The position numbers were made by a program, and so were the translations under genes. The notes beneath the pieces were generated by a model. That model was not told the DNA's origin. It made no database searches and saw nothing but the letters and a program-made list of their open reading frames with translations. A stretch of 64,000 nt of DNA from Asanoa hainanensis (GTDB lineage Bacteria > Actinomycetota > Actinomycetes > Mycobacteriales > Micromonosporaceae), in the NCBI RefSeq assembly GCF_900188485.1, contig NZ_FZPH01000001.1:682001-746000 (forward strand), written 5' to 3'. Each line of letters starts with the position of its first letter. Position 1 is the first letter of the stretch. Below are positions 6,283 to 13,171 of this stretch, in pieces.

Positions 6283-6558
6283 TCAGGACGGGAGACCGAC
6301 CGTGATCTTCCATTCCTTCAGCTCGCGGTCCTTGGTCACGTCGAGCTGCGTGTACGGGTCCTGCGCGACCAGTGCCTCCGCGCTCGCCAGGTCGTCGGCG
6401 GCCAGCACGATGATGCCGCCGCTCAGGTCGGCCAGGGGGCCCGCCAGCACCAGCGCGCCGTCCGCCTTCAGCTTCGCCAGGTGCTCCAGGTGGTCGGGGC
6501 GCTTCTCGGCGCGCAGCGGGGTGTCGTTGTAGCCGTACGTCAGGATGAAGTGGGCCAT
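6283..6558 (-). CDS. YciI-family protein
   Basis: 91 aa with the ferredoxin-like YciI layout: a hydrophobic first strand FILTYGY, the conserved H-x-x-H-L helix DHLEHLAKLKADG and the AGPLAD loop. YciI proteins are small putative hydrolytic dehalogenase or lyase-like enzymes; the nearest defined relative is a chloromuconolactone dehalogenase. AGGAAAGG precedes the ATG. Last gene of the molybdenum-hydroxylase operon, 23 bp after the amidohydrolase, so it may act on a pathway intermediate (inference). Confidence 0.87.
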   Translation of the reverse strand: MAHFILTYGYNDTPLRAEKRPDHLEHLAKLKADGALVLAGPLADLSGGIIVLAADDLASAEALVAQDPYTQLDVTKDRELKEWKITVGLPS

Positions 6559-6581
6559 GGTCGCCTTTCCTTCGACAGGGG

Positions 6582-7493
6582 TCAGAGCCCGTAGACCCGG
6601 CGGGCCGTACGGGAGAAGACGTCGAACTGTTCGTCCTCGGTGCGGTGGCGCAGGGCCTGCTTCCACGCGTGCGTGAGCTCGGCCGAGGTCGTCCACAGCT
6701 TCTCGACCGGCAGGTTCGTGCCGAACATCGCGCGCGACGAGCCGAACAGGTCGAGCACCTCGTCGGCCACGAACCGGATCAGGGACGGGTCGACGCGGTG
6801 CACGAAGGTGCCCTGGCCCGTCAGCTTGACGACCACGTTCGGCAGGGCGGCCAACATACGCATGCCGGCCCGCCACGATGCCACGACCTCGGGGTCGGTG
6901 TGGTCGGTCAACATCCCGGCGTGTACGAGCACGAAGGTGACCGCCGGGTGGTCGGCGACGAGGGCCGCCGCGTCGTGCATCTGGCCCGCGAAGACCTGGA
7001 GCTCGAACAGCCAGCCCAGGTCGGCCAACGCGGCGATGTTGGAACGGAAGACCGGATCCTTCATCGTGTCCGGGCCGGAGGCGAAGCGGAACTCCGGGCG
7101 CTCGTGCCAGTGGAGCTGCAGGCGGGTGCCGACGACGAGCCGGCTGAGCGCCTGCTGTTCCCGCATCACGTCGACGGCGTTCGGCGCGAACAGGTCCGCG
7201 CAGCCCACCATGGCCATCGGCCAGCCGGTGCGCTCGTTCAGCTCGGCGATCCAGCGCACCTCGTCGACGACGCGGTCCAGGGGCCAGTTCGGCTGCACGT
7301 ACACGGACGTCCTGATGCCCGCCGCGGCGGCGTCGTCGCGGTACTCCTGGATCAGGTAGTCGCGCCGGATCGGCTCGTACGGTCCGAATATCCGCGGGAC
7401 CATCGGCCCGGACAGCCACGGCATGTCGGCCTGGCGCCAGACATGGTGGTGCGAGTCGACGATGTCGCCCGCGTAGAGCGAATCCTCAGACAT
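6582..7493 (-). CDS. Amidohydrolase-family (TIM-barrel) hydrolase of the COG3618 type
   Basis: 303 aa. Residues 13-18 carry the D-S-H-H-H metal-binding entry of amidohydrolase-2 proteins, followed by VYVQPNW, GTRLQLHWHE and VLVHAGML. Relatives include lactonases and pyrone- or muconolactone-type hydrolases, so it probably opens a lactone or cyclic amide made by the hydroxylase encoded upstream (inference). The start overlaps the stop of the VWA gene by 8 bp, which places it firmly in the same operon. Confidence 0.87.
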   Translation of the reverse strand: MSEDSLYAGDIVDSHHHVWRQADMPWLSGPMVPRIFGPYEPIRRDYLIQEYRDDAAAAGIRTSVYVQPNWPLDRVVDEVRWIAELNERTGWPMAMVGCADLFAPNAVDVMREQQALSRLVVGTRLQLHWHERPEFRFASGPDTMKDPVFRSNIAALADLGWLFELQVFAGQMHDAAALVADHPAVTFVLVHAGMLTDHTDPEVVASWRAGMRMLAALPNVVVKLTGQGTFVHRVDPSLIRFVADEVLDLFGSSRAMFGTNLPVEKLWTTSAELTHAWKQALRHRTEDEQFDVFSRTARRVYGL

Positions 7494-11867: not shown

Positions 11868-12364
11868 CAGCGGGTGGCCTCCTGTCCTGCGCGGTCGCGG
11901 CGGCGCCGGGCCGCGTCGAGGATGGCGCTGACGATCGGCGCGTAGCCGGTGCAGCGGCACACGTTGCCGCTGATCGCCTCGTTGACCTCGTCGGCGGTCG
12001 GGTCGGGGTTGCGGGCCAGCAGGGCCTCGGCCGACATGATCATGCCGGGCGTGCAGAAGCCGCACTGGGTGGCGAACCCGTCGATGAAGGCCTGCTGGAC
12101 GTCGCTGAGCTCCTGGCCGTCGGCCAGGCCCTCCACGGTCGCCACGGCGGAGCCGTCGACGGTGGCGGCCGGCACGAGGCACGAGACCACGGGCGCGCCG
12201 TCGAGCAGGACGGTGCACGAGCCACAGGCGCCCTGTGCGCATCCGCGCTTGGCACCCGTCAGGCCGAGCTGTTCCCGCAGGGCGAGCAGCAGCGTCGTCT
12301 CGGGCTTGGCCATGAAGGCCTGGTCGACTCCGTTGACCTTGAGATTGACGATCCTGACCGGCAT
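11867..12364 (-). CDS. Molybdenum hydroxylase, [2Fe-2S] subunit
   Basis: 165 aa. The N-terminal plant-ferredoxin-like cluster site CAQGACGSC and the C-terminal helical cluster site CGFC...CRC are both intact, so two [2Fe-2S] clusters are expected, carrying electrons from the molybdenum site to FAD. Length is standard for the small subunit. It lies between the FAD subunit (15-bp gap) and the molybdopterin N-half (1-bp overlap). Confidence 0.95.
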   Translation of the reverse strand: MPVRIVNLKVNGVDQAFMAKPETTLLLALREQLGLTGAKRGCAQGACGSCTVLLDGAPVVSCLVPAATVDGSAVATVEGLADGQELSDVQQAFIDGFATQCGFCTPGMIMSAEALLARNPDPTADEVNEAISGNVCRCTGYAPIVSAILDAARRRRDRAGQEATR

Positions 12365-12379
12365 GGGTCTGATTCCCTA

Positions 12380-13171
12380 TCAGTGGCCGAGCAGGGCTCG
12401 GCGGAGGTGGACGGGGAAGACGCGGGTGCGGTACCACGCGGAGGCGTAGGCGTCGTCGGCCGGCTCGATCTCGCCGCGGCCGGCCTCCCCCGCCGCGCGT
12501 ACCGTGTCGGCGGTCAGTTCTTGACCCACCAGGGCCGCCTCGACGGCGTGCGCCCGGATGACGCGCGGGCCGACGCCGCCGAGGGCTATCCGGGCGCCGG
12601 TGACGGTCCCCTCTTCCTCGGTGACGGTCGCCGCCACCGTGACCAGGGACGCGGAGTTGTAGCGGCGGCGGGCCGCCTTGACGTACCTGAAGGTGCCAGG
12701 TCGGGGTAGCTCGAAGGTGACGGTCGTGACGAGCCCGGCGCCGTTGGTCAGCTCTTCGACCGGCAGCTCGCGGCTCCCCGTCTCGTCGACGAGCGTGACC
12801 CGGGCGTCCAGCGCGACGAGCGCGACGGCGAGGTCGCCGTGCGGCTGGCGGGCGAACAGGTTGCCGCCGACGGTGGCCAGGTTGCGGACGGGTGTCGAGG
12901 CGATGCTCCGTACGACCGCGTTGAGGTCTTCCAGTCGGTCGTCGTGCTCGACCTGCGCGAGGGTGGTCGCCGCGCCGATCTCGACGGTGTCTCCGTGCAG
13001 GCGGATGCCCGACAGCCCCGCGCGGCGCAGGCTGACGAGCTCGGTTGGCGGTGAGGCGTAGTCGTTGAGCCACGGCAGCACACAGGTCCCACCGCCGATC
13101 GCCGTGGCTCCTCCGGCCAGCAGCCTCACCGCAGCCGAGACGTCGTCGGGGACGTGAACCTCGGTCAACAT
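12380..13171 (-). CDS. Molybdenum hydroxylase, FAD-binding subunit
   Basis: 263 aa. AIGGGTCVLPWL and TVGGNLFARQPHGDL are the two FAD-binding glycine loops of the CoxM/XdhB family, and LARVALGGVGP-like residues mark the C-terminal CO-dehydrogenase flavoprotein domain. First gene of the eight-gene operon. AAGGGGG 6 nt upstream supports the ATG at 13171. A 16-bp perfect palindrome lies 12-27 bp upstream, the likely operator. The subunit hands electrons to an unidentified acceptor (NAD+ or a carrier). Confidence 0.92.
   Translation of the reverse strand: MLTEVHVPDDVSAAVRLLAGGATAIGGGTCVLPWLNDYASPPTELVSLRRAGLSGIRLHGDTVEIGAATTLAQVEHDDRLEDLNAVVRSIASTPVRNLATVGGNLFARQPHGDLAVALVALDARVTLVDETGSRELPVEELTNGAGLVTTVTFELPRPGTFRYVKAARRRYNSASLVTVAATVTEEEGTVTGARIALGGVGPRVIRAHAVEAALVGQELTADTVRAAGEAGRGEIEPADDAYASAWYRTRVFPVHLRRALLGH

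Follow-up and report, generated by a model that had tools for sequence, protein, structure and literature searches.

A conserved operon for a molybdenum hydroxylase with a two-gene molybdenum subunit in Asanoa hainanensis

A 64,000-nucleotide stretch of the Asanoa hainanensis genome (contig NZ_FZPH01000001.1, positions 682,001 to 746,000 of the forward strand; hereafter the window) contains, on its minus strand at positions 6283–13171, an operon for a molybdenum (Mo) hydroxylase of the xanthine-oxidase family. Its Mo subunit is encoded by two genes, here called MoN and MoC, which were separate in 99 of the 100 loci compared (L025–L124), the exception being a fused outgroup with 39% identity. 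We see a slightly better than even chance that the operon is dedicated to catabolism and inducible, with a four-subunit Mo dehydrogenase at its center. Each part of the system has a known counterpart. An earlier prediction from the letters of this DNA (the original prediction) had regarded the combination of genes as apparently undescribed, and no published description of it was found in a literature search that left most subscription journals uncovered; the papers PMC12636525 and PMC12746152, as far as their available parts go, do not concern this operon.

Gene organization and the divided Mo subunit

The operon, its divergent regulator gene and the palindrome between them comprise the following features (aa, amino acids; FAD, flavin adenine dinucleotide).

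12380–13171, minus strand: FAD-binding subunit, 263 aa; Pfam FAD_binding_5 (108 bits) and CO_deh_flav_C (83 bits)
11867–12364, minus strand: [2Fe-2S] subunit, 165 aa; Pfam Fer2_2 (112 bits) and Fer2 (37 bits)
10491–11867, minus strand: MoN, N-terminal half of the Mo subunit, 458 aa, with the RGFG loop; Pfam Ald_Xan_dh_C and MoCoBD_1; top PDB match 3hrd_A, NdhL (E 1.9e-64)
9484–10494, minus strand: MoC, C-terminal half of the Mo subunit, 336 aa, with the GQG loop and catalytic Glu293; Pfam MoCoBD_2; top PDB match 3hrd_B, NdhM (E 1.3e-46)
8618–9484, minus strand: MoxR-type AAA+ ATPase, 288 aa, CoxD-like by place and type; Pfam AAA_5; NCBIfam MadB_ATPase at 252 bits (below the cut-off of 475); weak PDB matches to NorQ
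7486–8631, minus strand: VWA protein of the CoxE family, 381 aa; Pfam VWA_CoxE (152 bits, cut-off 26.4)
6582–7493, minus strand: COG3618-like TIM-barrel amidohydrolase, 303 aa, with Asn260 replacing the usual catalytic Asp; Pfam Amidohydro_2; alignment to 4dlf
6283–6558, minus strand: small YciI-family protein, 91 aa, an optional member; Pfam YCII (58 bits)
13220–13906, plus strand: GntR/FCD-family regulator, 228 aa, divergent from the FAD gene; Pfam GntR and FCD
13183–13198, no strand: perfect 16-bp palindrome TTATCGATATCGATAA between the GntR and FAD genes, candidate operator of the GntR regulator

The genes are read in the order FAD, [2Fe-2S], MoN, MoC, MoxR, VWA, amidohydrolase and YciI. 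The original prediction had placed an eight-gene operon at exactly these coordinates, in agreement with the open reading frames, all of which start with ATG and end with TGA, with the Pfam matches and with the codon pattern (third-position guanine-plus-cytosine (GC) content of 0.91–0.97 across the eight genes; GC content of the window 71.6%). It had also described nearly all of the genes as overlapping by 1–14 bp, which is true of five of the seven junctions (1 bp for [2Fe-2S]/MoN, 4 bp for MoN/MoC, 1 bp for MoC/MoxR, 14 bp for MoxR/VWA and 8 bp for VWA/amidohydrolase), while gaps of 15 bp and 23 bp separate FAD from [2Fe-2S] and the amidohydrolase from YciI. MoC is preceded by its own GAGAGGAG, which by eye resembles a ribosome-binding site. 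The Pfam models for the FAD, [2Fe-2S] and Mo domains all scored above their cut-offs, placing the enzyme in the xanthine-oxidase family, with the hammerhead and the first Mo domain in MoN and the second Mo domain in MoC.

The motifs of the active site are distributed over the two Mo proteins, as had been predicted, and they are strongly conserved. Every position of the RGFG loop (MoN 374–377) is kept in 98 of the 99 split loci, with a gap in the remaining one, and the three positions of GQG (MoC 47–49) are kept in 99, 98 and 99. The catalytic Glu of the KGIGE motif, E293 of MoC, is present in 98 loci, again with one gap, while the Ile of this motif is variable. The Mo-site columns V266, K342 and F376 of MoN are conserved in 98, 99 and 98 of these loci; together with E293 of MoC, we take them to correspond to Glu802, Arg880, Phe914 and Glu1261 of bovine xanthine dehydrogenase, using the alignments and the bovine numbering. 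Because Mo-site residues are near-invariant on both MoN and MoC, both halves are expected to contribute to one active site, and the two proteins presumably assemble into a complex.

The original prediction had named an uninterrupted gene in relatives as the observation that would turn the split into an error, and fused Mo genes were seen only in relatives of about 33%–41% identity. Among 29 more distant relatives, 27 were fused, one had its halves in different frames and one was cut short. These comprise the 26 distant loci first fetched, all of them fused (three near-identical), and three more picked for short frames, of which one was fused and cut by the contig end, one had its halves in different frames and one ended before the second half. 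Seven other Mo enzymes of the A. hainanensis genome and four plasmid records were fused as well. As fused genes are the rule among more distant relatives, the split is characteristic of one clade, and similar breaks may exist elsewhere. In another actinobacterial genome, the Mo halves of a 33% identical enzyme lie in two frames (L207:1821–4294), which could be a second split or a frameshift. MoN itself is broken into two frames in Sinorhizobium sp. BG8 (L120:13995–15361) and contains one TGA in an Actinoplanes match (L021); each of these could be a sequencing error or decay.

Distribution, ancestry and a conserved palindrome

The loci from named genomes are the best 80 of 514 relatives (591 pattern matches), hence the set of 100 leans to close relatives. 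Five of the 100 are plasmid-collection records, and four more distant plasmid records (36%–41% identical, fused) served as an outgroup; 100 plasmid records matched, and these nine were taken from among the 15 matches listed. Gene content was counted in 96 loci (the 100 minus three repeated genomes and the fused locus), of which 87 had enough room, defined as more than 4 kb of downstream sequence. Phyla were assigned from the record titles, and 30 of the 50 alphaproteobacterial loci belong to Mesorhizobium. Neighboring genes were clustered in 72 loci, leaving out 24 redundant Mesorhizobium loci, the three repeats and the fused outgroup (28 of the 100); since gene calling in this step was rough, with some antisense frames, the neighbor counts are approximate.

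The four enzyme genes, FAD to MoC, lie on one strand in all 96 loci. Among the 87 loci with room, both MoxR and VWA were found in 75, the amidohydrolase in 75, and all seven core genes from FAD to the amidohydrolase in 74. The complete core was present in 31 of 33 actinobacterial, 42 of 46 alphaproteobacterial and the single gammaproteobacterial loci, and in none of the six Chloroflexota/Thermomicrobiota loci or the single haloarchaeal one. MoN was detected in all six genomes of the genus, the window included (87%–100% identity), in 13 of 150 genomes of the family, and in four of 396 genomes of the phylum at E ≤ 1e-80; the amidohydrolase accompanied MoN in the same 13 family genomes. YciI, which had been counted as an operon member, is present in the window and was found in 13 of the 96 loci.

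The surroundings of the operon vary between groups. Many rhizobial loci have an AraC-like regulator, identified by eye, and an SRPBCC gene (Pfam) in front, while several Chloroflexota loci have a GntR/FadR-like regulator, also identified by eye, and a CoxG-family gene, with an EthD gene behind MoC in five of the nine shown. About 310–340 bp separate MoC from MoxR in loci L030–L036, at the place where some other loci hold an EthD-family gene, and at least one of these loci belongs to the EthD cluster. On a plasmid of the haloarchaeon Salinigranum rubrum (L121), the four enzyme genes are adjoined by cyclase-family and SRPBCC genes, and this locus suggests transfer of the enzyme genes between domains. 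In the window, a DsbA-like gene (13903–14616) and the GntR gene overlap at their ends by 4 bp. It was rejected as a member of the system, because it occurs in one of the 100 loci, there at a distance of about 2.7 kb from the regulator.

A close known counterpart of the enzyme is the nicotinate dehydrogenase NdhFSLM of Eubacterium barkeri (PDB 3HRD), which also has four subunits and a Mo subunit broken at the same boundary. NdhL and NdhM were the best PDB matches of MoN and MoC, and both halves aligned with them nearly end to end. The two halves of the E. barkeri enzyme, given as 50 and 37 kD in the available part of the source (PMC10331938), are also close in size to MoN and MoC. This much of the likeness noted in the original prediction, which is one of architecture, was borne out, while a shared origin of the split was not favored by the tree. 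A maximum likelihood tree built from 53 enzymes (700 columns) set the split clade apart as a group with an ultrafast bootstrap (UFBoot) value of 100 and nested NdhLM among fused enzymes (UFBoot 93 and 97), and a smaller tree gave the same picture. Constraining NdhLM to the split clade cost 16.7 log units and was not rejected by the approximately unbiased test (p-AU 0.082). Hence, two independent splits would be the better, though not proven, reading, with a single split shared with NdhLM disfavored but not rejected. The split clade also differs from nicotinate dehydrogenase at two pocket positions, where MoN has Val for Leu and Lys (Lys342) for Arg of NdhL, and in being mostly accompanied by MoxR/VWA and a COG3618-like partner.

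A GntR gene divergent from the FAD gene was also found in the family loci, in many other actinobacterial loci and in some alphaproteobacterial ones. In the same gap, most of the actinobacterial and several of the alphaproteobacterial GntR-bearing loci have TTATCGATATCGATAA or its core ATTATCGATAAT, sometimes with one mismatch; a few of the GntR-bearing loci shown have no clear copy. The long form lies upstream of the FAD gene in the window and in L025–L029, L041, L042, L044, L069 and L123, while the shorter form is found in other actinobacteria and some alphaproteobacteria. The 16-bp palindrome occurs at a single place in the 8.6-Mb genome at up to two mismatches, with no match of the reversed control, and a palindrome search for further pathway genes in this genome returned the operon site only. 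In 12 relatives, a search with the 12-bp core and one mismatch allowed gave between one and five sites in each genome; the reversed control also matched once in three of the 12. By coordinates, one core site was at the operon in 11 of these relatives, the remaining genome (L042) having the longer form there, and five of the 12 had no core site besides the operon. One extra site (G103, contig C44) was not counted, as the nearby proteins were read by eye as secreted proteins, an ABC transporter and a Fur-like regulator. The natural reading of these matches is that the 16-bp palindrome is a dedicated candidate operator of the GntR regulator.

The amidohydrolase, the substrate and the MoxR/VWA pair

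The original prediction had the amidohydrolase opening a ring made by the Mo enzyme, which now appears doubtful. The protein belongs to the COG3618 group by sequence (4dlf, E 3e-17), and an AlphaFold2 model built from eight sequences (mean predicted local distance difference test score of 80, weak stretches at 32–40 and 129–139) gave 4do7 and 4dlf as the best Foldseek matches (E 5e-17), with the TIM-barrel fold and the HxH motif present. The lactonases of this group, such as L-fucono-1,5-lactonase and LigI, share this fold and motif and carry a catalytic Asp on the last strand, in a GSDWP motif. In the operon's protein the Asp, seen in 4dlf, is replaced by Asn260, and Asn was found in 55 of 56 aligned sequences, the other being gapped. 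The score of the only matching NCBIfam model, L-fucono-1,5-lactonase, was also far under its cut-off (107.6 bits versus 400). Because the expected Asp is Asn, a plain hydrolytic ring opening is doubtful, and ordinary hydrolysis is expected to be weak if no other residue fills its place.

These data could also mean that the amidohydrolase is not a catabolic hydrolase at all and instead serves the Mo enzyme specifically, as a scaffold, isomerase or partner in maturation, an alternative that we consider unlikely while giving it real weight. It would explain the constancy of the Asn and the occurrence of the gene in the same family genomes as MoN. The solved structures of the homologues LigI and IDCase include, by their titles, Asp-to-Asn and Asp-to-Ala mutants, and LigI D248N, which is among the structural neighbors, probably corresponds in position to Asn260. 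On the other hand, H15 and H17 are kept in 55 of the 56 sequences (one gapped) and H128, H130 and H191 in all 56, which would fit a metal site, and most of the named structural neighbors are enzymes.

The substrate was originally predicted to be an N-heterocycle, hydroxylated by an enzyme of the nicotinate-dehydrogenase type to a lactam that the amidohydrolase would open. An N-heterocycle is possible, while this scheme as a whole seems to us rather improbable. It is in line with NdhL and NdhM as top matches and with the common split point, with Lys342, which keeps a positive charge where NdhL has Arg, and with amide hydrolases of the cyclase and isochorismatase families that adjoin the operon in some relatives. 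The placement of NdhLM with fused enzymes, the two differing pocket positions and the missing catalytic Asp of the amidohydrolase speak against it, and no pyridine-pathway gene was recognized in the annotated part of the neighbors. Thus, the N-heterocycle found no specific support, and the neighbors indicate lactone chemistry no less strongly: SMP-30, FAH and SDR genes were found in some relatives, with a lactonase annotation in Yoonia, and one Chloroflexota locus has sugar-isomerase-like barrels. Near one split Mo operon, a single frame encodes an SMP-30/gluconolactonase domain fused to an isochorismatase domain (L112:10229–12031). Genes of this cluster adjoin the operon in Yoonia and Shinella.

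The pairing of FAH and SDR is known from non-phosphorylative sugar routes, according to the available part of PMC6336799. In Pseudomonas simiae, a Mo-dependent dehydrogenase, probably together with a lactonase, oxidizes deoxyribose (PMC6365646), so that a Mo-family dehydrogenase is followed by a proposed lactone-processing step. The P. simiae enzyme is different in being an IorAB-like two-subunit enzyme with cytochrome c, and the words VWA and AAA are absent from the main text of that paper. Overall, the neighbors suggest a lactone- or lactam-forming catabolic dehydrogenase, with a slight lead for a lactone-type product over nitrogen compounds.

The MoxR-class AAA+ gene adjoining a CoxE-family VWA gene beside the Mo enzyme forms a CoxD/CoxE-type pair, in the same order of AAA+ ATPase gene and VWA_CoxE gene as coxD and coxE of Oligotropha carboxidovorans. 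The VWA protein had no phmmer match in the PDB, and no relevant description of the NCBIfam names MadB and MadC turned up in the literature search. Such a pair had been predicted as the enzyme's own. It is present. Two fused Mo enzymes of the A. hainanensis genome also have CoxE-type VWA genes no more than about 4 kb away, so pairing of this kind is not special to the split enzyme. The active-site loop of aerobic carbon monoxide (CO) dehydrogenase requires a Cu-binding Cys, while the SSAMRGFG loop of the present enzyme has none. In the maturation of CO dehydrogenase, CoxD serves Mo sulfuration, and CoxE acts with CoxF in copper insertion, as described in the available part of PMC4240915. As the loop lacks Cys and the operon lacks an XdhC-family gene, a role of the MoxR/VWA pair in Mo sulfuration or cofactor insertion is, by analogy, more likely than one in copper insertion.

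That the enzyme is itself a CO dehydrogenase or a close relative is very unlikely and was rejected. The CoxE-family match and the CoxG-family gene beside some Chloroflexota relatives would agree with it, but the loop is without Cys, and the CoxL models, a comparison proposed in the original prediction along with that to NdhL/NdhM, gave 140–159 bits for MoN and 132–144 bits for MoC against cut-offs of 950–991. Nothing in the window supports the split as a frameshift or assembly artefact, although both halves can be aligned over their whole length with fused enzymes. This reading can practically be dismissed, as the halves were separate in 99 of the 100 loci, the MoN/MoC junction has a 4-bp stop/start overlap and a ribosome-site-like sequence, and the codon pattern is normal in both halves.

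A proposed catabolic pathway and its implications

In the explanation that we prefer, a dedicated inducible catabolic operon, MoN and MoC would fold together to form one Mo site, as the single chain does in fused relatives. The enzyme would transfer oxygen from water to one of the carbons in a small organic molecule, most likely to a ring carbon beside a ring O or N, giving a lactone or lactam; a sugar-like substrate, oxidized from lactol to lactone, is slightly favored over an N-heteroaromatic one. Electrons would pass from Mo through two [2Fe-2S] clusters to FAD. The MoxR/VWA pair could use ATP to complete the maturation of the Mo site, probably by sulfuration. The Asn260-containing COG3618-like partner may act on the product; in place of the standard hydrolysis with an Asp base, it would rely on a modified chemistry or serve to bind. 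The GntR/FCD protein, bound to the palindrome, would probably repress the operon until the substrate or product appears.

Several observations weigh against this explanation. The Asn in place of the catalytic Asp tells against a plain lactonase step just as against ring opening, and the lactonase of P. simiae was dispensable in vitro, according to the available part of that report (PMC6365646). The isochorismatase- and cyclase-family neighbors are amide-type hydrolases, and in Yoonia the nearby transporter carries a branched-chain amino-acid type annotation, with Shinella sharing the Yoonia clusters. The operon is without an XdhC-family gene; the genome's three matches to that family are grouped on another contig, C22, in the vicinity of other Mo genes. 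Among the Chloroflexota/Thermomicrobiota loci with room, MoxR/VWA was found near the enzyme in one of six and the amidohydrolase in none; as most of these loci have no MoxR/VWA nearby, the enzyme is apparently able to mature without an adjacent pair.

We put at a little less than even the chance that the operon represents a second four-subunit class of the xanthine-oxidase family, split independently of nicotinate dehydrogenase. It would then define a catabolic pathway that is not yet described and occurs in several phyla, in which a dedicated MoxR/VWA maturase serves a copper-free Mo site, the constant COG3618 partner has lost the catalytic Asp, and a GntR operator of its own is shared between phyla. 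With no copper loop in its Mo enzyme, the operon offers a test of the MoxR/VWA role: if the pair is needed here, it must do more than insert copper. The Mo site encoded by two genes provides a natural case for studying how this fold is assembled from separate chains. The conserved palindrome and its regulator provide a practical handle on the inducer, hence on the substrate, and this widespread operon opens a direct way to a new catabolic pathway.

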